From: Prevotella sp.
Lineage (GTDB): Bacteria; Bacteroidota; Bacteroidia; Bacteroidales; Bacteroidaceae
Reading direction: 5' to 3'
DNA length: 38,185 nucleotides
Assembly: GCA_017443345.1 (NCBI GenBank)
Contig: JAFSNR010000203.1
Coordinates: 1-38,185, forward strand
The position numbers and the translations under genes are program-made. The first letter of the stretch is position 1; the number at the start of each line of letters is the position of its first letter. A model generated the notes under the pieces. That model saw only the letters and a program-made list of their open reading frames with translations. It searched no databases and was not told the origin of the DNA. Positions 8,875 to 36,202 of the stretch are shown piece by piece.

Positions 8875-9363
8875 TTATTTTCTGGTTCCTGTAAACTGTC
8901 CATCGAAAGCGAAGGGCATATTGCCGTATTTCTGTGAGAACGTCATCACAACCGTCTTGTCGTTAAAGATGACAGTGATGTCACTGATGGTATAAGCCTT
9001 CTCTGACCCATCGGCAGTTTTCACCGTACCCTCATACTTGTCGAGCTTGCCAGTAATCGTATTGCCGCTCTTGGTCAGTGAGATTCCCTTCACAGGAAGG
9101 GCGGGGACAGTCATCATACCTTCACCATATTTGGGAAGAGTCACGTCGACAGATACGTCTGTAGCTTTAGTAAACTCAATGGTCTCGGTACTTTCATCAG
9201 CCTCTCCCATCACGGTGAGAGTCTCAGTGCCTGTATAGGAACCTGCTACCTGCGTAGCTACAGGCACCTCAGGCTCGTCGTTACTACTGCTGCATGAACT
9301 CATACCAAACACGAAGGCCATCGCAGCCAAAATCTGAAATCTGAAATCTGAAATCTTAATCAT
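8875..9363 (-). CDS. Calycin-like lipoprotein
   Basis: A 162-residue product with a lipobox ending at Cys24 (FGMSSC) followed by an acidic Ser/Asp/Glu linker. The mature part reads as a small eight-strand barrel (SYTGTETLTVMGEADE, FNDKTVVMTFSQKYG, FDGQFTGTRK), resembling the Bacteroidota calycin-like lipoprotein family often found near heme or cobalamin receptors. The N-region of its signal peptide (ISDFRFQI) is encoded by heptamer repeats TGAAATC, so its start is tied to a repeat array that also fills the upstream spacer. It lies 14 bases before the TonB receptor gene. Ligand unknown. Confidence 0.75.
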   Translation of the reverse strand: MIKISDFRFQILAAMAFVFGMSSCSSSNDEPEVPVATQVAGSYTGTETLTVMGEADESTETIEFTKATDVSVDVTLPKYGEGMMTVPALPVKGISLTKSGNTITGKLDKYEGTVKTADGSEKAYTISDITVIFNDKTVVMTFSQKYGNMPFAFDGQFTGTRK

Positions 9364-9404
9364 ATCAACTATAAACTTTAAATTATAAACTATAAACTAC
9401 CTCC
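9330..9404. repeat. Heptamer array: lipoprotein start and upstream spacer
   Basis: On the plus strand the units read TGAAATC (three times), two diverged units, then TATAAAC, TTTAAAT, TATAAAC, TATAAAC, TACCTCC, all kept in the same 7-base phase over about ten units. The array spans the stop codon of the membrane protein (9397-9399), the whole intergenic spacer and the first codons of the lipoprotein. Confidence 0.9.
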
Positions 9405-10197
9405 CCGTCCCCAACTGTTGTGTGGTGTAATCGTACTCTGAGCCGAAAGCACTATGCGGAATCGTGAAGACGGCAATCATCACCAGTACCGCCAGAACGA
9501 CCAACCACTTATTGTACTTCCACTTGATGGTAGCCAGGGCTGCCAGGAAGAAGAGGAAGGAGATGAGGGTCTTATTGTCCGTGAGGTCTGTGCCATAGGG
9601 GAATCCTGTCCACCATGGCCCGAAAGCCGCATGCTGAACGAGAGGGCCTAAGACAAAACCTCCCACGAACAACGTTCCAACCGTAATCCAAAGCCACTTC
9701 TTGTAGGGCTTGCGTGTCACTACCAGCAGGAAGGTATAGATAGCAAAGAGCATCGCTCCGAACATCAGCAGGATGTGGGGTATCAGGATATAGGCAGGCA
9801 CATCGTTGCGGAAACGGATCACCACTGGCTCATCTTTCAGATAGTCCTTACCGTCGACAGTGAGATAATACTGCAGCTTCCCTGCGACGGGCTGAACAGG
9901 CAGAGCTGCCTGCCAGGCACCATCCTGCCACTGGAAATCGACTGTGGTGTAGTCGTTCGTCGTGGGGTAACGACGGTAATGCAGACTCATGGCAACAGGT
10001 TCAGCGAACTCAGGGACACCCTTCAGCGTAACCAGCTCATCGCGCTGCACCCCACTGCGGGGCAGCTTGATCTGATAGTGCTCACCACGCAGTTCGATAT
10101 TGACCTTCTGAGGATAAGTAGGCCCCGTCATGCGCTGGTAGATGCTCAGCGCCAATGTGATGACTATAGCGAGAATCCAGTAGACAACCTTTTTCAT
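9397..10197 (-). CDS. Integral membrane protein of unknown function
   Basis: A 266-residue protein with an N-terminal membrane segment (residues 1-20), a periplasmic beta-rich domain at about 30-130 (LRGEHYQIKLPRSG, YYLTVDGKDYLKDEPVVIRF), and a C-terminal block of about four membrane helices (YILIPHILLMFGAML, WITVGTLFVGGFVLGPL, ISFLFFLAALATI, WLVVLAVLVMIAVF). The membrane part has conserved-looking His and Trp residues (PHILL, QHAAFGPWWTGFPYG), as seen in heme-binding or electron-transfer membrane proteins, but no named family is evident. Its ATG overlaps the stop of the M28 peptidase in an ATGA, which suggests translational coupling. Its own stop codon lies inside the heptamer array. Confidence 0.75.
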   Translation of the reverse strand: MKKVVYWILAIVITLALSIYQRMTGPTYPQKVNIELRGEHYQIKLPRSGVQRDELVTLKGVPEFAEPVAMSLHYRRYPTTNDYTTVDFQWQDGAWQAALPVQPVAGKLQYYLTVDGKDYLKDEPVVIRFRNDVPAYILIPHILLMFGAMLFAIYTFLLVVTRKPYKKWLWITVGTLFVGGFVLGPLVQHAAFGPWWTGFPYGTDLTDNKTLISFLFFLAALATIKWKYNKWLVVLAVLVMIAVFTIPHSAFGSEYDYTTQQLGTGR

Positions 10198-11521: not shown

Positions 11522-11554
11522 GCAAAAGTAACATTTTTCTTCCACGCTTGCAAT
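11522..11554 (-). promoter_or_regulatory. Promoter of the M28-TonB receptor operon
   Basis: On the minus strand: TTG (11551-11553), 20 bases, TACTTTTG (11522-11529) followed by C. This fits the Bacteroidota -33/-7 consensus and lies 23 bases upstream of the ATG at 11498. Confidence 0.75.
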
Positions 11555-11611
11555 CCCTATTTATTAGGATTTTCGTAAAACATACGACAAAAAGACATAA
11601 ATCAATGTCAA

Positions 11612-11645
11612 TTTGTCGGTACTCACCCCCTCGGCATATACTTTG
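11612..11645 (+). promoter_or_regulatory. Probable clpB promoter
   Basis: TTTG at 11612-11615, 21 bases, then TATACTTTG at 11637-11645. The -7 element has one extra base compared with TAnnTTTG. It lies 35 bases before the clpB start. No CIRCE-type inverted repeat was seen. Confidence 0.45.
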
Positions 11646-11679
11646 TTGGGCTTTTAACAAAAACAAGGAGGACAAAGAT

Positions 11680-14256
11680 ATGACATTAGACAAATTTACA
11701 ATTAAAGCACAAGAGGCTGTTCAGGCAGCTGTCAATACGGCTCAGATGAACGGCCAGCAGGTCATCGAACCTGCACACATTCTCAAGGGTGTGATGGAGA
11801 AGGCGAAGGACGTAACGAACTTCATCTTCCAGAAACTCGGGGTTAACGCCCAGCAGATAGAGCTTCTGATAGATCAGGAGATCAAACACCTGCCACGCGT
11901 GCAGGGCGGACAACCCTATCTCTCTAATGATAGTAATAATGTACTCGTACGTGCACAAGAGACTGCACAGAAGAATGGCGATGAGTTCGTATCGGTAGAG
12001 CCGATATTGCTCGCTCTGCTTAGCGTCAACTCTACTGCCGCCCGTATCATGAAGGATGCTGGCTGCACGGAGAAAGAGATGACGAAAGCCATTCAGGAAC
12101 TGCGTCAGGGACAGAAGGTACAATCGCAATCAGCCGACGACAACTACCAGAGCTTGGAGAAATACGCCAAGAATCTCGTTGACCTTGCCCGTCAGGGTAA
12201 GCTCGACCCCGTTATCGGACGTGATGATGAGATCCGTCGTCTGTTGCAGATCCTCTCCCGTCGTACTAAGAACAATCCTATCCTTATAGGTGAGCCTGGT
12301 ACTGGTAAGACCGCCATCGTCGAAGGACTCGCAGGACGTATCGTTCGTGGTGATGTGCCTGAGAACCTGAAGGACAAACAGCTCTACTCTCTCGATATGG
12401 GAGCCTTGGTGGCTGGTGCGAAATACAAAGGTGAGTTTGAGGAGCGCCTGAAGAGCGTCATCAACGAGGTGACGAAAGCTGAGGGCCGCATCATCCTCTT
12501 CATCGACGAGATCCACACACTGGTAGGAGCCGGAGGCGGTGAGGGCGCCATGGATGCTGCCAACATCCTCAAGCCTGCCCTCGCCCGTGGTGAACTGCGT
12601 GCCATCGGAGCCACTACCCTCAATGAGTACCAGAAATACTTCGAGAAGGACAAGGCCCTCGAACGTCGATTCCAGACTGTGATGGTAGATGAGCCTGATG
12701 AACTCTCAGCTATCTCCATCCTTCGTGGACTGAAGGAGCGTTACGAGAACCATCACAAGGTACGTATCCAGGATGATGCCTGTATCGCTGCCGTACAACT
12801 CTCTGAGCGCTATATCTCTGAGCGTTTCCTCCCCGACAAGGCCATCGACCTGATGGACGAGGCAGCCGCAAAGCTCCGTATGGAGCGCGACAGCGTACCC
12901 GAGGAACTCGATGAGATATCCCGTCGCCTGGCCCAGCTCGAAATCGAACGCGAGGCGATTGCAAGAGAGGTTAGGGGTAAGGGGCAAGAGGTTAGAGAAT
13001 ACTCTGCTGCAGACACATCTCTAACCCCTAACCCCTCACCACTAACCACTAAACTCGATCAGCTCGACCGCGACATCGCCGAGCTGCGTGAACAGGAGGC
13101 CCAGTTCCGTGCCAAGTGGGAAGGCGAGCGCCAGCTGGTAAACAAGATCCAGCAGGACAAGCAGGAGATAGAGAACCTGAAATACGAGGCTGAGCGCGCA
13201 GAGCGCGAGGGCGACTATGGCAAGGTGGCAGAGATCCGCTACTCTAAGCTGAAAGCCCTCGAGGATGACATCAAGTCCATCCAGGCTCAGCTCGCAAGCA
13301 CCCAGGACGGCAACTCACTCGTTCGCGAGGAGGTCACTGCCGATGATATCGCAGAGGTGGTAAGCCGTTGGACAGGCATCCCCGTTACCCGTATGATGCA
13401 GAGCGAACGTGAAAAGCTGCTCCATCTGGAGGAAGAGCTGCATAAGCGTGTCATTGGTCAGGAGGAGGCCATCACGGCCGTTTCCGATGCCGTACGTCGT
13501 AGCCGCGCAGGTCTGCAGGATCCAAAGCGACCTATCGCCAGTTTCATCTTCCTCGGCACCACTGGTGTTGGTAAGACAGAGCTAGCAAAAACTCTCGCAG
13601 AATACCTCTTCAACGATGAGACGATGATGACCCGTATCGACATGAGCGAATATCAGGAGAAATACAGCGTCTCACGACTGATTGGTGCACCTCCGGGATA
13701 CGTGGGCTACGACGAGGGTGGTCAGCTCACTGAGGCCGTACGCAGAAAACCGTATTCTGTAGTGCTCTTCGATGAGATAGAGAAGGCTCATCCTGATGTG
13801 TTCAACATCCTTCTTCAGGTATTGGACGACGGACGTCTCACAGACAACAAGGGACGTACTGCCAACTTCAAGAACACCATCATCATCATGACCTCTAACG
13901 CCACTCGTGAACAACTGCGCAGCACCATGCGTCCAGAGTTTCTTAACCGTATCGATGAGATTATCACCTTTACGCCACTCACCAAGGAGCAGATTGCCGA
14001 TGTTGTCCGTCTGCAGATGAAGAAGATTACCGACATGCTTGAGCCTCAGGGCATACGTCTGGAATGCACGCCTCAGGCCATTGCTTACCTTGCAGAGGAG
14101 GGTTACGACCCTGACTTCGGAGCCCGTCCCGTAAAACGAGCCATCCAGCAGTTCGTGCTCAACGACCTCTCTAAGAAGCTCCTTGCAGATGAGGTAAATC
14201 GCGACAAGCCCATCATCATCGATGAGTTTGGAGAAGGACTCGTATTTAGGAATTAA
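11680..14256 (+). CDS. clpB: ClpB disaggregase (Hsp100 AAA+ ATPase)
   Basis: Cytoplasmic ring ATPase that extracts proteins from aggregates together with DnaK. The start at 11680 follows AAGGAGG closely and gives the family N-terminus ([17 protein letters not shown]). Order: Clp N-domain (1-145), first AAA+ domain with Walker A GEPGTGKT near 204 and FIDEIHTL, coiled-coil middle domain, second AAA+ domain with GTTGVGKTE near 626, [13 protein letters not shown] and the [11 protein letters not shown] sensor region, ending in a D2-small domain. At 858 residues it is near normal length, but residues about 431-457 are an in-frame insertion made of two opposing heptamer arrays in the middle domain, where relatives have only a few residues. 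The middle domain regulates the ATPase and contacts DnaK, so the insertion may alter control. Confidence 0.97.
12967..13053. repeat. Opposing heptamer arrays inside clpB
   Basis: Left arm 12967-12997 reads GAGGTTA, GGGGTAA, GGGGCAA, GAGGTTA; right arm 13019-13053 reads CTCTAAC, CCCTAAC, CCCTCAC, CACTAAC, CACTAAA. The left arm is complementary to the right at 25 of 31 positions by eye, with a 21-base loop. The reading frame is kept. Confidence 0.9.
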
Positions 14257-14259
14257 CAA

Positions 14260-20346: not shown

Positions 20347-20354
20347 ATCATCAT

Positions 20355-20389
20355 CTATAAACTATAAACTCTAACCACTAACCACTAAT
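20355..20389. repeat. Heptamer array between DUF4954 and M16 genes
   Basis: On the plus strand: CTATAAA, CTATAAA, CTCTAAC, CACTAAC, CACTAAT, an exact period of 7. It occupies almost the whole intergenic spacer, including the place where the M16 ribosome site should be, and supplies the TAG stop codon of DUF4954 (20385-20387). Confidence 0.9.
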
Positions 20390-22238
20390 TTTCATAATCA
20401 ATCTCATGATCAAGCTTCTCCACGAAGTCATCGAAGACCTCCCGCTCTACATCACCCATGGCAAACTCCTTCTCTGCATCCTTACGGATCTCGGCAATCC
20501 AGGCACGACGGGCCTTGACATAGTCTTCATGGATGCGCTCACAGGCTGCAGCATCGAGTTCCTCAATCTGATAGTAGTCCAGAATCATCTGATAGCTCCA
20601 AGCCCAACGATAGTCAGAATAGTTGTTATTGATCTCCGTGAAACGGTCGAGCACCTGCTGGATGTTATCGATAGCACCGCTCTTGATGTCATTGATCAGT
20701 CTCTGTTCCTCACTCTCAGGCAACAAGAGACCACTCAGGTCTACCCACTTGCCCTGTCCCACAGTACTTACGGGTTTGCCGATATATCCCTCCTTCTGGG
20801 CACGTTTCAGCACAGCGCCCATATAGATACGCAGGGCAATGTCGTAGTATTTCAGACCCTTTGTCAGCGATGAACAGGCAATCACATACTCATGGAAGTT
20901 ATAGCGCGACACGTTGTCACCAGAGGCGTGGCGCAGATCTTTCAGGATCTGGATACCCTGACGGATCTCTCCCACAGTGAAAGGCGAGAGCCAGTCGAAG
21001 TTGATGATACTCTTGCGCGATTGGCGTGAGCGTTTGTCACGCTTCGGCCATTTCTTGATATCGCGGTAGAGACCTACTGTGGTAATATTACGACCAGGTA
21101 CGAGTACCATCTCATCGCCATAGGCAATCAGATAAGAGAAGGGCAGGTTACGTGTATCAGGATGGTGCATCAGCTTACCGAAGCAGACACTGAAGGCACC
21201 AATCGTAGCGGGCATCAGGATATAGGCACCTGAGGCTGTCTTCGTTCCTCTCTCCAGGGTTCCCCAGTGCATCGGGCCCATCTTATAAGCGTGATTCGAG
21301 AAGTTCGTGTTAGAGCCTGCATTATAGAACGAGAACTCACCTCCGATCAACAGCGAACTCTTATGGTGAGAGGCTGAGAATGGACCGCAGAATGCTGCAC
21401 AGGCTTCACCATTGGCCATAAACGAGTTGGCAAAGAACAGACTGGCCTCAGCTGTAAAGCCATTGGTAATCTGACAGGCCTCACCCACGAAACAGTCCTG
21501 CATCTTCACGGAGTTATTGATCGAACAACCGTCACAGATGATCGAGTTTTCACAGATGACACCTGTACCTATAAACACAGGGGCATCCATCGAACTCATC
21601 ACTGTACACTCCGACAGACGGGCTGCACCACTAATCTCACAGTCGCCCTTGATAATCGTATTGGTGATATCCTTGGCATTGATGATCTTTACATTATTAC
21701 CGATATAGCCGCGATCAGGACGCGACACACGGAGCTCGTCCTCAATCATCTGCTGCATCGTGTGTTTCAGCTGCTTATCAGTATTGTATTTCACCATCAG
21801 GGCAGCCAACTGACTGTTCAACTCCCTGAAAATGGTCACGTTACCATCACCCATCTCGTTGAGCACAGAGATGACGGAACCTTCACCGAAAGTAGCATCA
21901 TCTGTGGTCTCCAGGGTACAGATGTTCGAGATATAACAGTCGTTGCCAATCGTATAGTTGTTGATATAGTTGCCCACTTTCTCAATCAGACAGTCATTTC
22001 CCACGGTCACATTTCTTAATGTGGCGTCATTGATACCAGAATGCTTGAAGAAACCTTTCGATACCTCCACCATCTTATGAAAGGCCCCCAGCCGGATGTC
22101 ACCATAAAAGATGACACGATGGAAGTTGTAAGGCTTAAAGTCCTCAGCTACCATTACCCGCTGCCAGTCCTCTGCCCAACAGACATTGTTCTCCAAGACC
22201 TCAATCTCAGTCTGTGTTAAGTTTCTGTAATCACTCAT
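20385..22238 (-). CDS. DUF4954 protein (left-handed beta-helix, hexapeptide-repeat type)
   Basis: A 617-residue cytoplasmic protein without signal peptide. The centre (about 100-330) is a run of hexapeptide-like turns such as GNDCLIEKVGNYI, GVICENSIICDGCSI and NNSVKMQDCFVGEACQI, which form a left-handed beta helix as in sugar-nucleotide transferases and acyltransferases. The C-terminal third is helical and charged. The family is widespread in Bacteroidota and is sometimes annotated as similar to UDP-GlcNAc pyrophosphorylase, but no nucleotidyltransferase signature is seen. The start at 22238 overlaps the hflX stop by eight bases; upstream in-frame codons would run into hflX. Confidence 0.88.
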   Translation of the reverse strand: MSDYRNLTQTEIEVLENNVCWAEDWQRVMVAEDFKPYNFHRVIFYGDIRLGAFHKMVEVSKGFFKHSGINDATLRNVTVGNDCLIEKVGNYINNYTIGNDCYISNICTLETTDDATFGEGSVISVLNEMGDGNVTIFRELNSQLAALMVKYNTDKQLKHTMQQMIEDELRVSRPDRGYIGNNVKIINAKDITNTIIKGDCEISGAARLSECTVMSSMDAPVFIGTGVICENSIICDGCSINNSVKMQDCFVGEACQITNGFTAEASLFFANSFMANGEACAAFCGPFSASHHKSSLLIGGEFSFYNAGSNTNFSNHAYKMGPMHWGTLERGTKTASGAYILMPATIGAFSVCFGKLMHHPDTRNLPFSYLIAYGDEMVLVPGRNITTVGLYRDIKKWPKRDKRSRQSRKSIINFDWLSPFTVGEIRQGIQILKDLRHASGDNVSRYNFHEYVIACSSLTKGLKYYDIALRIYMGAVLKRAQKEGYIGKPVSTVGQGKWVDLSGLLLPESEEQRLINDIKSGAIDNIQQVLDRFTEINNNYSDYRWAWSYQMILDYYQIEELDAAACERIHEDYVKARRAWIAEIRKDAEKEFAMGDVEREVFDDFVEKLDHEIDYEN

Positions 22239-23589
22239 AATCTTGATATAAAAAATCGTTATATGGATACTTCTGTACATGCAACTCGCGCACACGCTTA
22301 TACAACGTTTCACGCAAGGCATCGATATTGTCTTTGTTCTTGGCGGAGATGAATAGGCACTCCAAGTACCGGTTTCCAGAGCCTGTAGACTGTAAACTGT
22401 CATCTGTAAACATTTTCCCCATCCAGGTCTTCTCCAAATCCTCGAGCGTCAGGTTCTCACGGGTCATTGGAGTCAGGTCGTCTTCTTCTTTCTCCACCCA
22501 CGTATAGGCATCAATCTTATTGAACACCAGCATCGCCGGTTTATCAGCACAACCCAGTTCCTTTAGCGTTTCCTCTACCACACGGATCTGTTCCTCAAAA
22601 TCAGGGTGCGAGATGTCCACCACATGTACCAGCAGATCGGCCTCTCTCACCTCGTCAAGCGTACTTTTAAAGCTCTCTACCAGGTCTGAAGGCAACTTAC
22701 GGATAAAGCCCACGGTATCCGCCAAGAGGAAAGGCAGGTTGTCAATGGTCATTTTTCTCACCGTGGTGTCGAGAGTGGCGAAAAGTTTGTTCTCAGCAAA
22801 CACCTCGCTCTTGGCCAACAGGTTCATCATCGTACTCTTGCCCACATTCGTATAACCCACAAGGGCCACACGGATCAGTCTACCTCGGTTCTTCCTTTGT
22901 GTAGTCTTCTGCTTGTCAATCTCAGCGAGACGCTGTTTCAACAAGGTGATACGCTGCAGAATGATACGACGGTCCATCTCCAGCTGGGTCTCTCCAGGAC
23001 CACGAAGACCCACAGAGCCCTTTCCACCACCAGAGCCTGATCCACCGCCTTGTCGTTCCAAGTGTGTCCACAGTCGCTGCAACCGGGGCAACATATATCT
23101 GTGCTGGGCCAACTCAACCTGAGCCTTGGCCTCAGCTGTCTGAGCACGCATCGCAAAGATATCCAGGATCAGAGAGGTACGGTCGAGAATTTTCACCTGC
23201 AGTTCCTTCTCGATATTACGCATCTGTTTCGCCGAAAGCTCATCGTCGAAGATGACCATACCCACTGGCTGTGGGGCCTTCGAATCATCTAACAGTCCCT
23301 CGGCAAAGAGCGAGGCATCCTGGGAATCAAGCCACTCGTCGTATGCGTCCTGACATTGCTTGATATAGGCCTTGATCTCCTGCAGCTTTCCGCTTCCGAC
23401 ATAGGTCGTCTGACTCGGCCCACCTACCTTTTGGGTAAACCGCCTCACAGTGACAGCGCCTGCTGTATCAGCCAGGAACTCCAACTCGTCAAGATATTCT
23501 TTGGTCTTGGCTTCGTCCTGATCTTTAGTGATGAGTCCAACCAGTACCGCAGTCTCAGCCTTAGCCTCTGATATTACAAATTCTTTCAT
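22231..23589 (-). CDS. hflX: Ribosome-associated GTPase HflX
   Basis: A 452-residue GTPase that binds and splits 70S ribosomes under stress in other bacteria. The HflX N-domain carries [12 protein letters not shown] (about 62-73) and [13 protein letters not shown] (110-122); a Gly-rich linker at 181-192 precedes the [12 protein letters not shown] signature (198-208). The G domain has G1 GYTNVGKST at 245-253, [10 protein letters not shown] for G3, and NKID for G4. Two oddities: an acidic insertion at about 79-108, and a heptamer-encoded segment ([10 protein letters not shown]) at about 394-403 near the C-terminus. It is the first gene of a five-gene operon. Confidence 0.95.
22383..22410. repeat. 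Heptamer array inside hflX
   Basis: On the plus strand: CTGTAGA, CTGTAAA, CTGTCAT, CTGTAAA, exact 7-base phase. It encodes part of an insertion between the [10 protein letters not shown] and [10 protein letters not shown] segments of HflX, with the frame kept. Confidence 0.8.
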
Positions 23590-23628: not shown

Positions 23629-23649
23629 AAAAATGAATGTTTTTTATAT

Positions 23650-23689
23650 TTTTTACCTTTTTACTTTTTTACCTTTTTATTTTTTATTA
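23650..23689. repeat. Octamer array in the nagB promoter
   Basis: TTTTTACC, TTTTTACT, TTTTTACC, TTTTTATT, TTTTATTA, a period of exactly 8 over five units, ending directly at the -7 box of nagB. It occupies the space where the -33 box should be. Confidence 0.75.
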
Positions 23690-23697
23690 TATCTTTG
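23690..23697 (+). promoter_or_regulatory. nagB -7 box
   Basis: TATCTTTG followed by C is a perfect TAnnTTTG box 36 bases before the nagB ATG. The usual upstream TTTG is replaced by a T-rich octamer array. Confidence 0.7.
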
Positions 23698-24528: not shown

Positions 24529-26537
24529 TGAAAAGTCTTTTTCTTTTATCAATGATTATGACGTCATCAGTCCTCGCTTGGGCTGGTGACGTTATTGTTT
24601 CGTCTCCCAACGAGAAACTCCAGGTGACGATCAGTGACGCAGGCGGACGCTTGTATTATTCAGTAACACTCGACGGCCAACAGGTATTACAACCTTCCGC
24701 CCTCGGTCTCAAGACCTCCATAGGCGACTTCACCACTCAATTATCTATTCTAACCACTAACCTCTCACCCCTAACCTCTTCGTATGAGATGCGCGGCACC
24801 AAAGCCTCGTCTGCCACTTATAAGGCCAACACTCTGACCTTGGATGTCCAGAACAAGGACGGGCGCAAGTTCTCCGTGATCTTCCAGGTCTCCGACAATG
24901 ATATTGCCTTCCGCTATCAGATACCTCGTCAGGCCATCAATAAGAAAGAGTACAAGCGCGCGCGCATATTGGCCGAACTCAGTAGCTTCAACTTCCCCGA
25001 TGGCACCACCACCTTTATCTCTCCCCAGATAGGTCCAGAGACTGGTTGGGAACAAACCAAGCCTTCTTATGAGGAAGGTTATTCTGCCGATTCCCCCATG
25101 GACACCCCGTCCCAATACGGCCATGGCTACATCTTCCCCGCATTATTTCACATATCTCTAACCTCTCGCTCGGCTTCGCCGCTTGGCTCATCCAAGAACC
25201 CCTCACCTCTAACCTCTAAGAATATTTGGGTTCTCGTCAGTGAAACTGGTGTATCCTCAGGATACTGCGGCTCTCACCTCTCTGACTACCAGTCAGGAAC
25301 CGGCTACACCATCGCTTACCCTGATCGTGGTGAAAACAATGGTTTTGGTACCGACTTCGCAGCCATACCACTACCAGGCGAAACCCCATGGCGCACAATC
25401 ACTGTGGGCAACACGCTGAAACCCATCGTAGAGACCACCATCTCTTACGACCTCGTAGAGCCCCTTTATGAGCCCAGCATCGATTATAAACCCGGTCGCT
25501 ACACTTGGAGCTGGCTCCTCTGGCAGGATAATTCCGTTAACTACGACGACCAGGTCAAGTTCATCGATCTCGCCTCTACCATGGGCTTCGAGTATTGCCT
25601 GGTCGACAACTGGTGGGATACACAGATCGGTCGTGAGCGCATCGAAGAGCTCTCCAAGTATGCCCAGTCCAAGGGTGTACACCTCTTGCTATGGTATAAC
25701 TCCAATGGTTTTTGGAACGATGCCCCACAAACCCCACGTAACTGTATGAACACAGCCATCGCCCGTGAGCGTGAGATGAAATGGCTCCAGAGTATCGGCG
25801 TCAAGGGTATCAAGGTTGATTTCTTCGGAGGCGACAAACAAGAGACCATGCGCCTTTATGAAGACATCCTGTCTGATGCCAATCGCTATGGCTTGCAGGT
25901 GGTGTTCCATGGCTGTACCATCCCTCGTGGTTGGGAGCGTATGTATCCTAACTATGTAGCCTCTGAGGCTGTGCTAGCTTCCGAGAACCTGTTCTTTGGC
26001 GAAGAAGCCACCATTCGTGAGGGCTTCGACCTCACCCTCCATCCCTTCTGCCGTAATGCTACGGCCTCGATGGACTGGGGCGGCATCATCATGAACAAAT
26101 GGATGTCGCGTGATAATAAGAGCCGTCATACCCGTAAGACCACTGATATTTTCGAGTTGGCCTCTGGCATTATTATGCAGACCTCCGTACAGTGTGTAGC
26201 CATGCAACCCAATAACCTCGACGAACTCCCACAGTTCGAACTCGATTTCTTGCGTGACCTCCCCACAACATGGGAAGAGACCCGCTATATCGATGGCTAC
26301 CCCGGCAAATACGTCATTCTCGCCCGCAAAGCCAACAACGGCCAATGGTACATTGCCGGCCTCAATGCCCTCAAAGAGCCCCTCACGTTGACCCTCAACT
26401 TGAAGGACTTCCAGGGGCTTTCGCAACTCTACATCGACAACAAAAAAGGTGAGCCAACCCTCACCTCCCTCAAACTCGACAAAAAAGCCTGCACCAAGAT
26501 CACCCTCCAACCAAACGGCGGTCTGATCATCAAATAA
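24525..26537 (+). CDS. GH97 family glycoside hydrolase (alpha-galactosidase/alpha-glucosidase)
   Basis: A 670-residue exported enzyme with a signal peptide (about 1-21), an N-terminal beta-sandwich and a (beta/alpha)8 barrel with the family landmarks [18 protein letters not shown], and [11 protein letters not shown]. Asp432 in KVDFF sits where retaining GH97 enzymes (BT1871-like alpha-galactosidases) have their nucleophile, and Glu481 in ASEAV is a candidate acid/base; the retaining, alpha-galactosidase-like type is therefore likelier than the inverting SusB type. The start overlaps the nagB stop (ATGATG). Two in-frame repeat-derived segments are present: about residues 75-84 ([10 protein letters not shown]) and about 211-232 ([10 protein letters not shown]), both in the N-terminal half. 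Confidence 0.9.
24748..24775. repeat. Heptamer array 1 inside the GH97 gene
   Basis: TTCTAAC, CACTAAC, CTCTCAC, CCCTAAC, exact period of 7, in frame. The unit type is the same as in clpB and between DUF4954 and M16. Confidence 0.85.
25156..25220. repeat. Heptamer array 2 inside the GH97 gene, with an inner dispersed module
   Basis: CTCTAAC at 25156, then a central 34-base module (25166-25199: TCGCTCGGC ... CGCTTGGCT ... TCCAAGAAC), then CCCTCAC, CTCTAAC, CTCTAAG at 25200-25220. The central module has a relative at 32685-32724. Confidence 0.75.
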
Positions 26538-28613: not shown

Positions 28614-28638
28614 TTCTCATTATTCTCCAAAACCGCTG

Positions 28639-29642: not shown

Positions 29643-29681
29643 AGTTACTTAGTTTAACGTTATAAAAAAGATTTGTTGCTG

Positions 29682-29713
29682 CAAAGGTAAACATTTTCCC
29701 CCATATCGACAAA
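29682..29713 (-). promoter_or_regulatory. Promoter of the fimbrillin-family gene
   Basis: On the minus strand: TTTG (29710-29713), 20 bases, TACCTTTG (29682-29689) followed by C, 40 bases before the start at 29642. Confidence 0.75.
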
Positions 29714-29955: not shown

Positions 29956-29959
29956 TCCT

Positions 29960-29967
29960 TACCTTTG
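29960..29967 (+). promoter_or_regulatory. Promoter -7 box of the candidate small RNA
   Basis: TACCTTTG followed by C, a perfect TAnnTTTG box pointing to the right. The only thing downstream on this strand is the short element ending in a terminator at 30090. Confidence 0.6.
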
Positions 29968-29973
29968 CAACGT

Positions 29974-30090
29974 CATACAAAGACGAGTGGCTAACCCTGG
30001 CCGATGTTATACTTAAATTATTACTATGAATACCGAGGCTCAGCGGAGCCTCACAAAAGAAGGAGGCCCAACCAGCCTCCTTCATTTTTT
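29974..30090 (+). ncRNA. Candidate small RNA of about 117 nt
   Basis: The segment is bounded by a -7 box at 29960-29967 and a strong intrinsic terminator (GAAGGAGGC / GCCTCCTTC then ATTTTTT) at 30059-30090. It contains another perfect 7-bp hairpin (GAGGCTC-agcg-GAGCCTC, 30035-30052). The ATG at 30026 opens a frame that runs through the terminator and antisense into the next gene, so it is not a convincing protein. No known RNA family is recognised. The 3' end is next to, and shares its terminator with, the convergent cation-transporter gene. Confidence 0.45.
30059..30083. terminator. Bidirectional terminator (small RNA / cation transporter)
   Basis: A perfect nine-base stem with a seven-base loop. 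On the plus strand it is followed by ATTTTTT, on the minus strand by TTTT, about 35 bases after the transporter stop. Confidence 0.85.
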
Positions 30091-30117
30091 CTCCCATAAA
30101 CCATCCACTCTTTCCGC

Positions 30118-31005: not shown

Positions 31006-31032
31006 ACCATTTTCTGTATTCTAACCACCTAA

Positions 31033-31848: not shown

Positions 31849-31850
31849 TT

Positions 31851-31878
31851 ATCTTTCTTAATTCTTAACTCTTAATTC
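31851..31878. repeat. Heptamer array between bcp and the AlkD-like gene
   Basis: ATCTTTC, TTAATTC, TTAACTC, TTAATTC on the plus strand, exact period of 7. It fills the spacer and includes the stop codon of bcp (31865-31867) and its last codons. Confidence 0.85.
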
Positions 31879-32326
31879 CTGAAAGGATCTGTTCCGCATG
31901 CTCCTTGGTCTTCACCTGCTTGCCTGCAAAAATCTGCTCAATGACACCTTCCTCATTGATGATAAAGGTTGTGCGGATGGTGCCCATAGTCTTCTTGCCA
32001 TACATGGATTTCTCGCCCCAGGCACCCATGGCCTCCAGAAGTTCGTGGTTGACATCAGCAATCAGCGGAAACGGCAATTCGTGCTTCTCCTTGAACTTCA
32101 CGTGCGAAGCCGCAGAGTCCTTGCTCACACCTACCACCTCATAACCAGCTCCTTGCAGTTCCTTGTAATGGTCACGCAAACTGCAAGCCTCAGCGGTACA
32201 GCCGCTGGTATTGTCCTTCGGATAGAAGTACAGCACCAGTTTCCTGCCCTTGTAATCACTCAGACGGATGTCCCGTCCCTGCTCGTCCTTGCCCAGAATC
32301 TCGGGCGCCTTGTCTCCAATTTTCAT
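31865..32326 (-). CDS. bcp: Thioredoxin-dependent thiol peroxidase (Bcp/PrxQ)
   Basis: A 153-residue peroxiredoxin that reduces hydrogen peroxide and organic peroxides with thioredoxin. FYPKDNTSGCTAEACSLRD holds the peroxidatic Cys43 and the resolving Cys48 five residues later, the PrxQ arrangement. The remaining fold markers are VVGVSKDSAASHVKF, PFPLIAD and RTTFIINEEGVI. Length is normal. It follows the superoxide dismutase fragment by 18 bases; superoxide and peroxide defence would have made functional sense together. Its last codons and stop are supplied by a heptamer array. Confidence 0.94.
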   Translation of the reverse strand: MKIGDKAPEILGKDEQGRDIRLSDYKGRKLVLYFYPKDNTSGCTAEACSLRDHYKELQGAGYEVVGVSKDSAASHVKFKEKHELPFPLIADVNHELLEAMGAWGEKSMYGKKTMGTIRTTFIINEEGVIEQIFAGKQVKTKEHAEQILSGIKS

Positions 32327-32340
32327 ATCAAGTTATTAAA

Positions 32341-32361
32341 ATTTTCAATTATCAATTTTAC
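32341..32361. repeat. Short heptamer array at the truncation point of the SOD fragment
   Basis: ATTTTCA, ATTATCA, ATTTTAC, three units with period 7. It holds the stop codon of the dismutase fragment (32345-32347) and its last codons. With only three units, chance is harder to exclude here than for the other arrays. Confidence 0.5.
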
Positions 32362-32596
32362 ACATTTCAGGTTCCCACAGATGCCTCCCCATATCCACAT
32401 GCCCATTAGCCTTAAACATCACGCCCTCCTCTTCCAAAGGCAGTCCCGCCAACGGGCTTCCATCCAACATTGCGTTCAGATTATTCACATAGCCCGCCAA
32501 ATGCTTCCCATGATGAAAATCTATGGTCTCTCTACTAATCACCGGCTCCAACGCATCCTGTGCATACGGCAGTGTCATCAATATAAATTTTCCCAT
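32345..32596 (-). pseudogene. N-terminal fragment of Fe/Mn superoxide dismutase
   Basis: The first about 60 residues match the SOD N-terminal hairpin ([33 protein letters not shown]), with the first metal-ligand His in the FHHGKH phrase. From about residue 60 the match fades ([16 protein letters not shown]) and the frame stops at 83 residues; a full SOD has about 190-200. At least the catalytic Asp/His ligands of the C-terminal domain are missing, so it cannot be an active dismutase. It keeps a good promoter and the first place in the operon. ATG at 32596 or 32578 are both possible starts. A retained short peptide or leader role cannot be excluded. Confidence 0.7.
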
Positions 32597-32624
32597 ATTC
32601 TTTTTTTTTTTAGTATTTCCGGTT

Positions 32625-32632
32625 CAAAGATA
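32625..32632 (-). promoter_or_regulatory. Promoter -7 box of the stress operon
   Basis: On the minus strand: TATCTTTG, 29 bases before the start of the dismutase fragment. A TTTTTGG lies about 22 bases upstream, slightly further than usual for the -33 box. Confidence 0.6.
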
Positions 32633-32684
32633 GGCATTTTCCCACAAATTCCACCAAAAATCAAAAAATATCTTCATTTTTATG

Positions 32685-32724
32685 TCGCTCGGCGACGAAG
32701 GAGACGCTTGGCTAGTCCAAGAAC
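32685..32724. repeat. Dispersed module related to 25166-25199
   Basis: TCGCTCGGC, 11 bases, CGCTTGGCT, two bases, TCCAAGAAC. The same three blocks in the same order occur inside the GH97 gene with shorter spacing. The left block also forms a GTCGC-tcg-GCGAC hairpin here. Confidence 0.5.
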
Positions 32725-32780
32725 ATTTCCCCTTTTCTCATACTATAAGAGTAGAAAGTCGAACAAAAAACATCTTGAAT

Positions 32781-32951
32781 ATGGCAAACAAAATCTACTT
32801 CACCGCTGACCTCCATTCCCTCACCCACATTTATGCTGAGCCTGTCGAAGCACAAAGGCCTGCCTACCATTTCCGTAAGCAGACCTTCACCGTAATGATC
32901 AGGCCCATCAGGCCGATGAGTATCCAAAACCGACGCCGAGCCGAGTGTTAG
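32781..32951 (+). pseudogene. Possible 5' remnant of a metallophosphoesterase gene
   Basis: The start MANKIYFTADLH matches the first strand and the metal-binding D-x-H of calcineurin-type phosphoesterases (usually KIYFTADLHFGH). After about 14 residues the similarity ends, and a TGAGCCTGTCGA element (32837-32848) follows in the same frame; the frame closes at 57 residues. I read it as a decayed gene start. The short match means this could be coincidence. Confidence 0.35.
32837..32848. repeat. TGAGCCTGTCGA element, copy 1
   Basis: The 12 bases TGAGCCTGTCGA occur here and again at 35709-35720 inside an M15 peptidase gene. It resembles short REP-like dispersed motifs. Both copies follow the N-terminus of a reading frame. 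Confidence 0.4.
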
Positions 32952-32955
32952 TGTC

Positions 32956-33147
32956 GTGCTCGCACGAGCACTACCGAGGCGAGAACCGATGGAGCAGCGA
33001 GAGGAGAGCGGAGCTCGCTCTGGCTTTCCCGAGTCACGACAGAGGTCGACCATCGGTCAAGGCTTGGTGAGGGTGGATGTTTCTTTTAGTTCTTTTCTTT
33101 GCGCCAAAGAAAAGGACATTACCTTTTGCTCCTTTTTCAAAAAGGAG
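32956..33147. other. Hairpin-rich non-coding stretch
   Basis: Several perfect stems in a row: GTGCTCG/CGAGCAC (32956-32971), ACCGATGG (32985-32992) with CCATCGGT (33050-33057) enclosing AGAGCG/CGCTCT (33005-33021), CTTTTCTTTG/CAAAGAAAAG (33092-33114) and CTCCTTTTT/AAAAAGGAG (33129-33147). No gene fits this region on either strand. It may be a structured RNA, a mobile repeat or debris at the edge of the accessory island. Confidence 0.45.
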
Positions 33148-33158
33148 AAACAAAAAAA

Positions 33159-33189
33159 GGGAACCAATGCATTCACTGCATCAGTTCCC
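33159..33189 (-). terminator. Terminator of the DUF6266 gene
   Basis: GGGAAC...GTTCCC with an inner TGCA-rich stem, followed on the minus strand by a run of seven T (33152-33158). It lies about 28 bases after the DUF6266 stop. Confidence 0.85.
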
Positions 33190-33216
33190 TCCCGTCAATG
33201 ACCATTGACCACCGGC

Positions 33217-34281
33217 CTAATGGTCACTTCCCCCCGGCTCATCATCGCCGCCACCGTCACCGCCGGTGTTGCCACCCGTGTTCTGCCCGCCGGTATTGTC
33301 ACCGCCTCCCGAAGGAGTCTCCGACCCCGAGCCACCGCTCGAAGAGCCGCCACCGCTAGTTCCGCTACCCTGGCTAGTCTGGCCAGAAATACTCGCCAGC
33401 GTCTCCGGCTTCAGATACGCCACGCTCACGTTGATACCACCATAACTATCCGCACTCGCCTTCATCGCCGCGTACGTCTGATACTGCGCCAGCACATCGC
33501 TCACCACCGTCATCTGCTGCGAGCTCACCTTGATGCTACCCGAGTCCTTCTCGCGGCTATGCACCCATACGCCGCCCGCATTCACCAGCGCCTGGCCCAT
33601 ACCCAGCACATAACCATTAACCATGAACCCTTCACCATTAACCGAACTGAACCCTACCGCACTCACCACGCTCCACAGCGCATTCTCGTTCGTAGTGTCC
33701 AGCACCACCTTCTCCGCCGTCAGCGTCGCTCTCGGTGTTCCCGCCGAGTCCACGCGCTGCACACCGTAGAACCACGTCAGCTGGTCGCCGTCCTCCCACT
33801 CCGCGTTGTTCTGCAGAATAGCCAGCGTCAGGTCCGCCACCGTTGTCTCCGCGTCAATCACCAGCCCGCCCAGCTTCAGATCACTAACCATGAACCCTGA
33901 ACCATTCACCGTATTCTCTATCGGCACCAGACTGCCACTGCTGATGTAGCTCTCCGCCAGCACGCAGGCCCCAGCCACCCTCATGCTCTTCGTGATGTAC
34001 ACCGGGTTCTTGTCGTAGTTCGACGCCACAAAGCAGTTATACTCGCTCAGCCCCGCCTTCTTACCTTCCCACGCCAGCTTCAGCTTACCCTGATACAGCT
34101 TGAAGTTCGCGCTCATGTTCGCCAGCTGGCACCGCATGTTCGCCTGTCGTTCACTGCGTCGCGCGTTCGCCGTCTTCTTCGGAGCCCGAGCCAGAATCGT
34201 CCCGTGCGCCGTCTGTCTTGTCACAAACTGGTCAGTCAGCTTACCACTGGTCTGACTCAGAAAATCAGTTGTCTTTGCCAT
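33217..34281 (-). CDS. DUF6266 family protein with Gly-rich tail
   Basis: A 354-residue protein. Residues 1-100 carry a basic, conserved-looking N-terminal part (MAKTTDFLSQTSGKLTDQFV, RRSERQANMRCQLANMSANF, NCFVASNYDKNPVYITK) that I associate with DUF6266, a Bacteroidota family often near M15 peptidases. A beta-rich middle follows, then a low-complexity tail of about 50 residues made of Gly, Ser, Thr and Asp. There is no signal peptide. Two in-frame heptamer arrays encode nearly the same peptide twice: VNGSGFMV at about 123-132 and VNGEGFMV at about 211-224. The start at 34281 is preferred over 34350 because it gives the family N-terminus. Function unknown; the context suggests a phage-derived module. 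Confidence 0.75.
   Translation of the reverse strand: MAKTTDFLSQTSGKLTDQFVTRQTAHGTILARAPKKTANARRSERQANMRCQLANMSANFKLYQGKLKLAWEGKKAGLSEYNCFVASNYDKNPVYITKSMRVAGACVLAESYISSGSLVPIENTVNGSGFMVSDLKLGGLVIDAETTVADLTLAILQNNAEWEDGDQLTWFYGVQRVDSAGTPRATLTAEKVVLDTTNENALWSVVSAVGFSSVNGEGFMVNGYVLGMGQALVNAGGVWVHSREKDSGSIKVSSQQMTVVSDVLAQYQTYAAMKASADSYGGINVSVAYLKPETLASISGQTSQGSGTSGGGSSSGGSGSETPSGGGDNTGGQNTGGNTGGDGGGDDEPGGSDH
33611..33652. repeat. Heptamer array 1 inside the DUF6266 gene
   Basis: TAACCAT, TAACCAT, GAACCCT, TCACCAT, TAACCGA, ACTGAAC, exact period of 7 over six units, in frame. Confidence 0.9.
33885..33912. repeat. Heptamer array 2 inside the DUF6266 gene
   Basis: TAACCAT, GAACCCT, GAACCAT, TCACCGT, exact period of 7, in frame. 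It has the same unit type as the array at 33611-33652, 274 bases away, so one may derive from the other. Confidence 0.85.
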
Positions 34282-34391
34282 AATCTTTTTTCCTTTCTTT
34301 AATTTAAATGAATAATTCTTGTTTATCTTTCTCCCCGCCCACCCGTACACATTAAATAATATAAGGCATCGTCCCGCCTTGCCAAAACATA

Positions 34392-34421
34392 AAAATAATC
34401 GGCGGTTTCTGCGATTATTTT
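34392..34421. terminator. Terminator downstream of the lysis-like genes
   Basis: AAAATAATCG pairs with CGATTATTTT around a ten-base loop, with A and T runs on both sides, so it can act on either strand. Two more perfect hairpins follow at 34428-34452 (CCTCT-GCCAA/TTGGC-AGAGG) and 34473-34494 (CCCTTCTT/AAGAAGGG). Confidence 0.65.
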
Positions 34422-34521
34422 TTTAAGCCTCTTGCCAACGATTGGCGAGAGGTTTGGTGAGTGGTTCGAGGTCCCTTCTTAAGGACAAGAAGGGATGAGG
34501 GATGTTGGTGAAAATGGGGTT

Positions 34522-34992
34522 TTAGGGTCGCCCCCTAATCCTCACTACGATCATCAAGACGATAACCGCCACGATAATCCAGAATATCCATTTGAGTCCT
34601 TGAACTATAGCGTTCTTCGAACTCTTTGGATTAGTGCCATTCGTGAAATTCGTGGTCGTCGATACCGAATCCCTCTTTTCGATGAATACCGTATCTCTCA
34701 CCACTCTTACCATTTCACTCCTGTCATTCACCTGAGCGCGGTCGCGAATGCGATCCCGCTCCGTCACCTGCGCCACCTTCAGCGTATCACCTGTCTCGTT
34801 ACGGTCAACAGTAATGGTGGTCGTTTCCATGATGGTGTCATGTACTTCGACCACCACCTTCTCAACCTTTACCGAGTCCTTCGTCACTCTTGAATCCAGC
34901 ACCCTGAAACTTGAAACTGCAGCTTCTCTGCTACTAGAGCACGCTGATACGATTAGCGCACCCAGCGCAATAACAAGCATTCTTCTTAACAT
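34522..34992 (-). CDS. Lipoprotein with C-terminal membrane helix (unimolecular-spanin-like)
   Basis: A 156-residue protein with a lipobox ending at Cys18 (LIVSAC), a beta-strand-rich, alternating Val/Thr/Asp middle (VKVEKVVVEVHDTIMETTTI), and a C-terminal membrane helix (about 132-150, WIFWIIVAVIVLMIVV) followed by Arg. Lipid anchor at one end and inner-membrane helix at the other is the architecture of phage u-spanins such as T1 gp11, which join the two membranes for the last step of lysis. The gene overlaps the end of the upstream coiled-coil gene by 59 bases. A heptamer array encodes residues about 24-35. Spanin function is inferred from layout only. Confidence 0.65.
   Translation of the reverse strand: MLRRMLVIALGALIVSACSSSREAAVSSFRVLDSRVTKDSVKVEKVVVEVHDTIMETTTITVDRNETGDTLKVAQVTERDRIRDRAQVNDRSEMVRVVRDTVFIEKRDSVSTTTNFTNGTNPKSSKNAIVQGLKWIFWIIVAVIVLMIVVRIRGRP
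34888..34922. repeat. Heptamer array inside the spanin-like gene
   Basis: TCTTGAA, TCCAGCA, CCCTGAA, ACTTGAA, ACTGCAG, period 7, in frame, just behind the lipoprotein cleavage site. Confidence 0.75.
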
Positions 34993-35239
34993 TTTCCAGT
35001 TCCTCCGAAATTCGTTGCACTTTCTCTCTCAACTCACGTACATCCTCCTTAAGAGGTTCGGCCACATGCGTTTCCCAATCAACGACAAACTTCTCGGCCA
35101 GCTCCATGTCCTTCTGGCGGATGTCCGCCTTCAGGCTCTCAATCTCCTGCTTGTGCTTCTTGCGGTCAATCACCCACCCGCATCCGCCCAGCATTGTTAT
35201 CACCGCCAGGATGATACTAGTCAAATCAATTCCCATCAT
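34934..35239 (-). CDS. Membrane-anchored coiled-coil protein of the lysis-like cassette
   Basis: A 101-residue protein with one N-terminal membrane segment (about 5-23, LTSIILAVITMLGGCGWVI), then a basic patch and a long charged heptad-type helix (KQEIESLKADIRQKDMELAE, LREKVQRISEELENV), ending with a Cys-rich tip (ACYCAGCA). One N-terminal helix plus coiled coil is the layout of Rz-type inner-membrane spanins and of some holin-like proteins. Start at 35239 or the adjacent ATG at 35236. It overlaps the lipoprotein gene, recalling the nested Rz/Rz1 pairs of phages. Function is inferred. Confidence 0.6.
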   Translation of the reverse strand: MMGIDLTSIILAVITMLGGCGWVIDRKKHKQEIESLKADIRQKDMELAEKFVVDWETHVAEPLKEDVRELREKVQRISEELENVKKNACYCAGCANRISVL

Positions 35240-35276
35240 AATTTTTCCCTTTCTTATTTTTATTGTTTATACTATT

Positions 35277-35765
35277 CTATTCACTCATCAGCTGCGCCAT
35301 ATCAAGTCTGCTCAACCTCAGATATCCCTTCCTTCCAGCAACCTTCTTCAAGATTTCCTTCCGGTTGCCTCCTTGGCGTTTCCAACTCACATGGATCCAC
35401 CTCGGTTCTATACCCGTACTTGGCACATCCTCCAAAATCATCTGGTCCCATTGACCATTCTTCACGATAGCCCTCACTATTTCCAGATTCTCCAGAGCTA
35501 GGTCGTTACCTCTCAGTCCTACCGCAGCGATGTCTGCTGCCGCCGATCCACCTTGACATAAATGCTGGCTCTGGCTGGCTCCACCCACTTCACGGTTGTG
35601 CTTCTCACATCTGTATCCTGAGTTCACCTTAATCGGTTCCCCATATCGCTCCCTCGCCGGATCCAGCACGTTTTCTACTAGCGCCCGGATGTTCTCAACC
35701 GCCTGTGGTGAGCCTGTCGAGCCGCAACATCGGCAGCGGAACTCCTCCATTTTAAACCTCGTCAT
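35277..35765 (-). CDS. M15-type peptidase (endolysin-like), slightly altered metal motif
   Basis: A 162-residue protein of the D,D/L,D-carboxypeptidase-like M15 family that cuts peptidoglycan cross-links. AAAGGAGG precedes the ATG. Visible motifs: VNSGYRCEKHNREVGGASQS, the first zinc His at 68 (SQH), Asp78 (AAADI), and the last His at 125 (RWIHVSW). The H-to-D spacing is ten residues instead of the usual seven because CQG has been inserted. A Cys-rich N-terminus (FRCRCCG) fits the Bacteroidota M15 type, and a TGAGCCTGTCGA element at 35709-35720 encodes part of the loop after it. No signal peptide is present, so release would need a holin or other route. Confidence 0.8.
   Translation of the reverse strand: MTRFKMEEFRCRCCGSTGSPQAVENIRALVENVLDPARERYGEPIKVNSGYRCEKHNREVGGASQSQHLCQGGSAAADIAAVGLRGNDLALENLEIVRAIVKNGQWDQMILEDVPSTGIEPRWIHVSWKRQGGNRKEILKKVAGRKGYLRLSRLDMAQLMSE
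35709..35720. repeat. TGAGCCTGTCGA element, copy 2
   Basis: Identical 12 bases to those at 32837-32848, here in frame inside the M15 peptidase gene, replacing the usual loop after the CRCCG motif. Confidence 0.4.
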
Positions 35766-35779
35766 ACTATCCTCCTTTT

Positions 35780-36202
35780 TTAACGTTTTACTTCTTTCCT
35801 GTTACCACCCTGACGTTTGTACGACACACGCACATACGTCGGGTACACTATCAGTTCATCATACTTGCCAAGTTCTTCGATAACCCTCGCCAAATCCAGA
35901 ACCGTGAATCCAGAATCTTGAACCGGAGCTATTTCAACCGCCTCGCCCTTAACAGCCGGGCTGTCGTTCGACCCGCCTTGTCGGCGGTTTTCCAATGGGC
36001 ATCTGAATCCAGATAACACCACGATCTCATTACCCAGTTTCTCACACACAGGTTCCAGCACCTCAGTCACCAGAGCCTCCATATTCTCTTCAATCCCATT
36101 CGGCAACTTCTTCACAGCCTGTGTCAGGCGGCACTCCTTACAGCGATCCTCCTTCCGTTCACGGTAGCAGCGAATCACCTCTTCTTTAGTGAAATACTTC
36201 AT
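35780..36202 (-). CDS. M15-like protein lacking all zinc ligands
   Basis: A 140-residue paralogue of the gene at 35277, from the ATG at 36202 that follows AAAGGAGG. The frame is kept (VVLSGFRCPLENRRQGGSND, then the shared C-terminal KRQGGNRKEV), but the zinc ligands are changed: the SxH His is Ala83, the Asp is Glu90, and the final His is Arg125. It should therefore not bind zinc in the normal way. It also has a Cys-rich segment near the N-terminus (CKEC). Residues about 94-103 (PVQDSGFTVL) come from an in-frame heptamer array. It may be a regulator, a binding domain or a decaying copy; the clean frame and good ribosome site argue for retention. Confidence 0.7.
   Translation of the reverse strand: MKYFTKEEVIRCYRERKEDRCKECRLTQAVKKLPNGIEENMEALVTEVLEPVCEKLGNEIVVLSGFRCPLENRRQGGSNDSPAVKGEAVEIAPVQDSGFTVLDLARVIEELGKYDELIVYPTYVRVSYKRQGGNRKEVKR
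35895..35922. repeat. Heptamer array inside the zinc-less M15-like gene
   Basis: TCCAGAA, CCGTGAA, TCCAGAA, TCTTGAA, exact period of 7, in frame. Confidence 0.8.

Follow-up and report, generated by a model that had tools for sequence, protein, structure and literature searches.

The short tandemly repeated repetitive (STRR) sequences of cyanobacteria, which are heptamer repeats, were reportedly described by Mazel and co-workers, and small dispersed repeats (SDR) are said, from the work of Elhai and co-workers in 2008, to be embedded in the heptameric repeats of Nostoc. G-rich heptamers of Nostoc and Xanthomonas are reported, with the unit GGGGATT named, inverted pairs noted, and the statement, made in 2015, that detailed literature on heptameric repeats was unavailable (PMC4692102); TAACTGA repeats are recorded in Beggiatoaceae, cyanobacteria and five Bacteroidetes (PMC4679880); and STRR fingerprinting is used to type cyanobacterial strains (PMC5088731). 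Intervening sequences (IVS) of 23S rRNA genes are known separately, one of them being a 428-nt insert that encodes the S23 or intervening-sequence protein (IVP; PMC4990558). Here we analyse a 38,185-nt window, the entire contig JAFSNR010000203.1 (C186) of a Prevotella sp. genome (GCA_017443345.1; G000, 4.16 Mb, 92 percent complete), in which a first-pass annotation had listed thirteen short heptamer arrays. The genome is apparently that of a rumen Prevotella: the named genomes closest to it belong to Prevotella and in many cases come from ruminant metagenomes. We find that arrays of this kind flank IVP genes as inverted arms, and that the arrays of the window are probably arms of hairpin cassettes similar to 23S rRNA intervening sequences, or shrunken or half copies of such cassettes. 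The analysis points to a family of small gene cassettes, probably mobile, as the home of a kind of bacterial repeat that has long lacked an explanation. Genomes and loci are cited below by our own handles (G and L numbers).

A complete cassette measures about 450-550 bp and consists of a tandem array with a unit of 7 to 12 bp, a short inner end, one small open reading frame (ORF; for IVP or, in a second group, for a GxxExxY nuclease) and the same array in inverted orientation. It shares with the 23S IVS of PMC4990558 the S23/IVP family by name, a similar total size, a sporadic distribution and the placing of an ORF within a long stem of terminal inverted repeats; it differs in that each arm is a tandem array whose unit is specific to the element. 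No cassette was seen inside a 23S rRNA gene, the neighbours seen being protein-coding genes, and no search of 23S genes was made. The arrays of G000 resemble the STRR and G-rich heptamers as degenerate tandem units of period 7 dispersed in the genome; here they flank IVP genes as inverted arms, whereas the terms "four helix" and "23S" do not occur in the accessible part of PMC4692102. TAACTGA repeats are likewise heptamer arrays, mostly lying just 5' of start codons in one genome and in some cases within ORFs; unlike the cassettes, they have a single unit, are nearly all direct and had no source element proposed for them in the accessible part of PMC4679880. Their occurrence in five Bacteroidetes makes the earlier view that no counterpart had been described in this group not quite right. 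Among the matches listed in our literature search, confined to open-licence papers, heptamer repeats and IVS elements turn up apart from each other, and none joins IVP or four-helix-bundle genes with heptamer arrays. Neither the inverted pairing nor the associated genes figured in the first-pass annotation.

The association rests on PF05635 genes, which encode the 23S rRNA intervening-sequence protein, a four-helix bundle, and which have on either side an array with a unit of 7 to 12 bp, the two arrays being inverted relative to each other. Both G000 genes scoring above the Pfam cut-off have this arrangement, with heptamers in element L119 and octamers in element L120 (locus L016); a third G000 match (L121) falls below the cut-off, and L066 and L092 lie above it. 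The arm score is that of the highest-scoring inverted repeat without gaps between flanks of 350 nt. Among 68 IVP loci, sampled as the better-scoring of the matches listed, the score was at least 12 in 65 and at least 16 in 51; direct repeats scored at least 16 in 4. Random intervals from related species (L039-L118) reached 12 in 10 cases out of 600 and 16 in 2, and those from stretches of IVP-bearing genomes in 26 and 1 out of 600, respectively. Sixty-nine loci had been tested, one being omitted as a short IVP (L166). The count also leaves out the weak hit L121 and four loci with short flanks; viewed separately, three of these four have arms (L139, L141 and L144) and one has none (L145).

In a control made blind to gene family, 324 small ORFs were called; 8 of them scored at least 16, and 5 of these are IVP genes, assigned by Pfam (L016, L066, L092), by our own profile (L088) or by eye (L069, whose start is nearly that of L092). 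The other three are a PDDEXK_3 gene (L115), an ORF without a Pfam match (L202) and one in L050. In the predicted fold of the L119 element as RNA, a fold of the native sequence alone, the arms pair end to end. No transposase was found among the five cassette ORFs scanned, all of which match PF05635 or PF13366.

The same arrangement is found on plasmids. IVP genes were located in 26 plasmid records, and the 18 analysed span five phyla, with 14 from cyanobacteria and one each from Spirochaetota, Bacillota, Bacteroidota and Chloroflexota. Inverted arms scored at least 17 at all 18 loci and were heptamer-periodic at 17, L266 being the exception; L263 and L265 do not count as independent because their arms and neighbours are identical. 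At four loci (L253, L267, L268 and L270) a direct match outscores the inverted arms. Among 66 other annotated small genes, hand-picked from 50 kb of each of five of these plasmids, none scored 14 or more and 5 scored 12; among 500 random intervals, the corresponding numbers were 0 and 17. In the Planktothrix element L268 the arms contain (CCCCAAT)n, the complement of which is a cyclic form of GGGGATT, a unit named in PMC4692102; the units of the window differ from it. At L267, L254, L264 and L269 the plasmid IVP gene sits among defence or adaptation genes: it lies between cas2 and cas1 in Anabaena and between hsdS and hsdR in Monoglobus, and in Chlorohelix and Gloeocapsa it adjoins helicase-like, methylase or HEPN genes.

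Arm period follows the protein. Of the 67 IVP domains placed on a tree (out of 77, with periods 6 and 14 scored as 7), 32 have arms of period 7, 26 of period 8 and 9 of period 9-12; the tree, built on few columns and with many unresolved forks, requires 11 changes of period compared with 27.5 when periods are shuffled, and none of 200 shuffles was as low. Similarity of arm sequence also correlates with IVP protein identity (Mantel r 0.41, reached in 0 of 2000 permutations). With pairs sharing flanks removed (2286 of 2346 pairs kept), r is 0.30, again unmatched in 2000 permutations, and arms are alike in 6 of 21 pairs with at least 65 percent protein identity versus 5 of 1185 pairs below 30 percent. 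Unit length behaves, probably, as a property of the IVP protein lineage, whereas unit sequence is specific to the element and alike on both arms. That length is held while sequence changes, as had been noted from the window, finds support at one common genomic site where seven loci (L122, L123, L124, L125, L128, L129, L131) share a unit length of 8 bp and have unit sequences of at least three unrelated kinds. The tree is compatible both with an inherited element whose unit length was kept and sequence renewed and with several separate arrivals of elements that have 8-bp units.

Comparison of orthologous loci, as proposed in the first-pass annotation, revealed sites that are occupied in some species and empty in others. 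An element of 468 nt with octamer arms on both sides occupies the leuC-leuD spacer of G000. Matches to this region were obtained in 39 of 60 genomes; among the 29 spacers examined, drawn from the matches listed, 10 measure 2 nt and several others hold unrelated arrays. Arms and ORF are therefore missing together, since these 10 relatives have a 2-nt, array-free spacer. The spacer between the DUF4954 and M16 peptidase genes is short in many species and carries arrays with unrelated units in others; in three (L066, L088 and L110) an IVP gene flanked by inverted octamer arrays occupies it, and the right array appears, from the sequences, to encode some of the hydrophobic N-terminal residues of the M16 protein. 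The octamer array of the window has the same unit as the arms of these three elements and of L189. Sequences of the GH97 linker differ among species, and some are array-like. From such differences between species we infer that the cassettes move.

An inverted pair without an ORF is present in the ClpC-like gene (positions 12966-13058), where it constitutes a 23-aa in-frame insertion. Of the 15 orthologs covering the site, 13 are without the insertion, which rules out ordinary conserved coding sequence here; a part resembling the right arm is retained in L067, and L050 has a different insert. The inner ends of the pair, GGTTAGAGAATA and GGTTAGAGATGTGT, compare with GGTTAGAGAATAG and GGTTAGAGATATGT in the resident IVP element L119: one matches and the other has one base different over 14. 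Miniature inverted-repeat transposable elements (MITEs) and repetitive extragenic palindrome doublets forming hairpins (REPINs) are likewise derivatives with inverted repeats and no ORF, and they may rely on a full element. Ends matching those of a resident full-length element are what such derivatives would have, and the ClpC pair nearly has them, but no resident source was found for the GTTTA family of G000 arrays; the cassettes depart from MITEs and REPINs in having arms of tandem short units in place of fixed terminal sequences, and in the absence of a transposase from those scanned. The pair has predicted RNA folding energies, for the native sequence alone, of -40.8 kcal/mol in the sense and -54.9 in the antisense orientation.

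The G000 sample contains seven further ORF-free inverted array pairs. Cores of such pairs are mostly between 19 and about 55 nt, and the short SDR cores that reportedly lie between heptamers in Nostoc resemble them. A repeated core family does not explain the pairs, the 35-nt core having just three copies in G000. In G006, several inverted pairs consist of 12-bp arrays of the CAGCAGGTGACG type (L243 9441-9530, L244 6026-6309, L245 1874-2170).

Arrays in the window exceed chance, as the first-pass annotation had supposed. Under a strict rule (17 of 21 matches), 6 runs were found at lag 7, whereas 20 dinucleotide shuffles averaged 0.0, and the other lags from 4 to 13 gave none except for a single run at lag 8. 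A looser rule (11 of 14) gave 12 arrays at lag 7 against 0.8 expected from 50 shuffles; lags 9 (9 versus 0.7) and 6 (6 versus 0.9) were raised as well. One of these 12, at 23667, represents the margin of an 8-mer array, and the remaining 11 are sites of the original list (9330, 12967, 13019, 20355, 22383, 24748, 25200, 31851, 32341, 33611 and 33885); the other two, 34888 and 35895, show no array at the looser lag-7 threshold. Units do differ between sites and vary within arrays as stated, and the claim of one exact period is true of the heptamers; the same window contains an octamer array (23640-23686). Tandem Repeats Finder, at score 30, did not list 34888, 35895, 32341 or 12967, and an Rfam scan of the window gave no match at gathering thresholds.

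Over 371 kb of G000, 60 runs at lag 7 and 20 at lag 8 were counted (0.0 and 0.2, respectively, in five shuffles); lag 9 gave 6 runs, and each of lags 4-6 and 10-13 gave 0-4. Array density in this sample is biased upward because 13 of the 20 stretches added to the window were picked for holding a hit. The window plus five stretches picked irrespective of hits (124 kb) gave 8 and 5 runs at lags 7 and 8. Raw counts from 80 orthologous loci of named Prevotella relatives (1.28 Mb) were 103 at lag 7, 78 at lag 8 and 58 at lag 14, with 27 at lag 9, 13 at lag 10 and at most 8 at each remaining lag between 4 and 15. Low-complexity runs were left out of the scans of the G000 sample and the orthologous loci, and two all-N contigs (L023, L028) drop out of the former. 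A search for three units of (TNTAAAC) matched 15 of 60 genomes, including G000 with 119 matches and 13 others of the genus; outside the family, 1 of 24 genomes matched. The reversed pattern, used as control, gave single matches in 3 of 60 genomes. Array units vary by species at the 12 Prevotella loci listed.

Dispersed arrays match the IVP arms of their own genome more often than expected. Across 12 genomes, 36 of 135 arrays have such a match compared with a mean of 9.3 when genome labels are permuted; the permutation maximum was 34, hence none of 5000 trials reached 36. Cognate examples include GGTACGGA in G034, 9-mers in G004, 12-mers in G019 and GTTGAGC in G028.

A second gene family is framed in a comparable manner. 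PF13366 genes encode PDDEXK_3 (GxxExxY) proteins, nucleases of the PD-(D/E)XK type; in the 24 of 30 loci having full flanks (L301-L330; six short-flanked loci omitted), inverted arms score at least 12 in 21 and at least 16 in 17, and 15 of the 24 have their best period at 9 or 10, as in CACGGATTA. PDDEXK_3 genes with inverted frames, some made of 9-10 bp arrays, were also seen at L115 (10125-10497) and L249 (11650-12076); G000 has no PF13366 match. A different pattern accompanies some longer IVP-like ORFs. In L121, CTAG recurs at 9-bp spacing on both sides (1045-1120 and 2773-2821); on both sides in L350 (1319-1412 and 2127-2199) the spacing is 10 bp, apart from one skip and one 9-bp step; and in L354 CTAG recurs at 9 bp on one side (1060-1108). 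Bases between the CTAGs vary in all three, and the spacing is not present at six other longer IVP-like loci.

If the cassettes are mobile, the intermediate might be a hairpin of RNA or single-stranded DNA to which the IVP protein binds. A multimer of this protein would bind the repeated unit in the hairpin and thereby fix its length, while slippage and template switching between arms would let them grow and stay alike. The nearest solved IVP structures (2rld and 2gsc) have five chains per entry, which fits, and does not prove, a pentamer. ORF-free arm pairs such as that of ClpC, and single arms such as the other arrays of the window, would be smaller derivatives lodged in operon spacers, 5' leaders and protein loops. 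Avd, a related protein, is an accessory of diversity-generating retroelements; a role of this type would call for a reverse transcriptase in the same genome, and G028, G008 and G019, which have 15, 11 and 6 PF05635 matches, show no PF00078 match.

A wider generalization is tentative, and we regard it as possible but less likely than not: a phylum-crossing class of mobile hairpin cassettes whose encoded protein reads or sets the unit length, with STRRs, TAACTGA repeats and the heptamers of the window as arms or remnants and the 23S IVS as one branch. Under this generalization, unit length might be 7-8 bp in most IVP lineages, 9-12 bp in much of one IVP clade and near 9-10 bp with GxxExxY genes, and the longer four-helix-bundle variant might have CTAG spaced at 9 or 10 bp. 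The link between arrays and IVP supplies a candidate source and a candidate cognate protein for such repeats, gives the intervening sequences of 23S rRNA a wider setting, and accounts for part of the linker and N-terminal variation in affected proteins.

Several observations weigh against the cassette interpretation. G028 alone supplies 13 of the 36 cognate matches, G006, G001 and G016 supply none, and in G027, G019 and G000 more arrays are matched by the arms of some other genome than by the genome's own. The GTTTA family, comprising 34 of 71 heptamer arrays in the G000 sample, has no resident IVP element of that unit in this 92-percent-complete genome; arms of the family are present in G035 (L162). 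Array density and IVP count show no significant correlation over 16 genomes (Spearman 0.38, p 0.145), and arrays occur in G018 and G003 despite no IVP match. Comparison of eight IVP loci within G028 and of eight within G008 gave no near-identical elements (73 percent at best); no recent burst is therefore seen, and recent transposition within these genomes was rejected for the loci compared. Flanks are common to 17 of 22 IVP pairs with at least 70 percent identity, which look vertical. No target-site duplication was determined, and IVP is not known to have a catalytic domain. As for PF13366, periodicity is weak (lag score of at least 20 in just 5 of 24 loci), and direct matches outscore inverted ones in 9 of 24.

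Other explanations were considered. Arrays could be functional hairpins or leaders, such as terminators, RNase III sites, translation-coupling elements or repeat-binding sites, selected beside genes and not mobile. Heptamer arrays of the G000 sample do frequently end at a start codon, 45 of the 71 having ATG at their sense 3' edge and 21 at the 5' edge, and translational control was proposed for TAACTGA repeats in PMC4679880. In addition, one short-core hairpin in two copies (L010 2777-2887 and 3471-3573) occupies both spacers of a three-gene operon. From the sequences of its genes, we take this operon to be aminotransferase-iorB-iorA. However, arrays are also inserted within coding regions (ClpC, GH97), many orthologous spacers have none, and unit length and sequence appear to track the IVP lineage; we consider this explanation unlikely. 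It is quite unlikely that arrays come first, as targets into which IVP or GxxExxY cassettes insert: the ORF-free inverted pairs, including that of ClpC, are what such targets would look like, but the 2-nt leuC-leuD spacers of relatives contain no array, and arm unit length follows protein phylogeny.

Slippage and quasi-palindrome template switching are established processes, and the variation of units inside arrays would agree with their neutral operation anywhere, IVP genes merely occupying permissive places. Yet the lag spectrum of G000 peaks at 7 and 8 with a drop at 9, genome-specific units and a length tied to protein lineage are not predicted, and IVP genes differ from other small genes in the arm controls; we find a purely neutral origin very unlikely. 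The first-pass annotation had thought of a templated or length-measuring process, possibly correlated with a reverse transcriptase. A reverse transcriptase or telomerase-like enzyme adding heptamers from a fixed-length template would fit the constant unit length, and G000 has 3 PF00078 matches. The correlation fails in that PF00078 is absent from array-rich G028, G019 and G027, whereas G010, with 6 matches, is array-poor, showing no 7-10 bp array in 60 kb. Such templated addition is hardly credible.

Table 1. Repeat arrays of the window, with positions counted from its first nucleotide.
Feature	Position	Strand	Remarks
Two adjoining heptamer arrays, (GTTTATA)n ending GTTGAT-ATG, then (ATTTCAG)n	9325..9401	-	At start of ORF 8875-9363
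Inverted pair, left (G-rich) heptamer arm, in ClpC-like ORF (11548-14256)	12966..12998	+	Inner end GGTTAGAGAATA, as in L119
Inverted pair, right heptamer arm, in ClpC-like ORF	13016..13058	-	Minus-strand inner end GGTTAGAGATGTGT
Heptamer array filling the spacer from DUF4954 stop to M16 peptidase start	20349..20391	-	Minus strand GGTTAGTGGTTAGAGTTTATAGTTTATAGATGAT directly before start codon
Heptamer array, plus-strand CTGTAAA, in overlap of HflX-like and DUF4954 ORFs	22379..22409	-	
Octamer array, TTTTTACC type	23640..23695	.	Divergent spacer between HflX-like gene and glucosamine-6-phosphate isomerase/6-phosphogluconolactonase-family gene
Heptamer array encoding part of variable GH97 glycosidase linker	24749..24779	.	
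Short heptamer array, CTCTAAC type, farther inside GH97 ORF	25197..25220	.	
Heptamer array, minus-strand AATTAAG, between AhpC/TSA-family and DNA-alkylation-repair ORFs	31852..31880	-	Overlaps AhpC/TSA 3' end
Weak heptamer array 5' of AhpC/TSA-family ORF start	32336..32360	-	Looser detector alone
Heptamer array, TAACCAT, within ORF 33217-34350 (no Pfam match)	33609..33643	-	
Further TAACCAT-type array in ORF 33217-34350	33882..33906	-	Orientation as in 33609..33643 array

About 170 bp (22231-22403) are common to the HflX-like and DUF4954 ORFs, which read them in different frames, and the actual start of DUF4954 may be near residue 55. GC skew is negative across the second half of the window (20000-38000).

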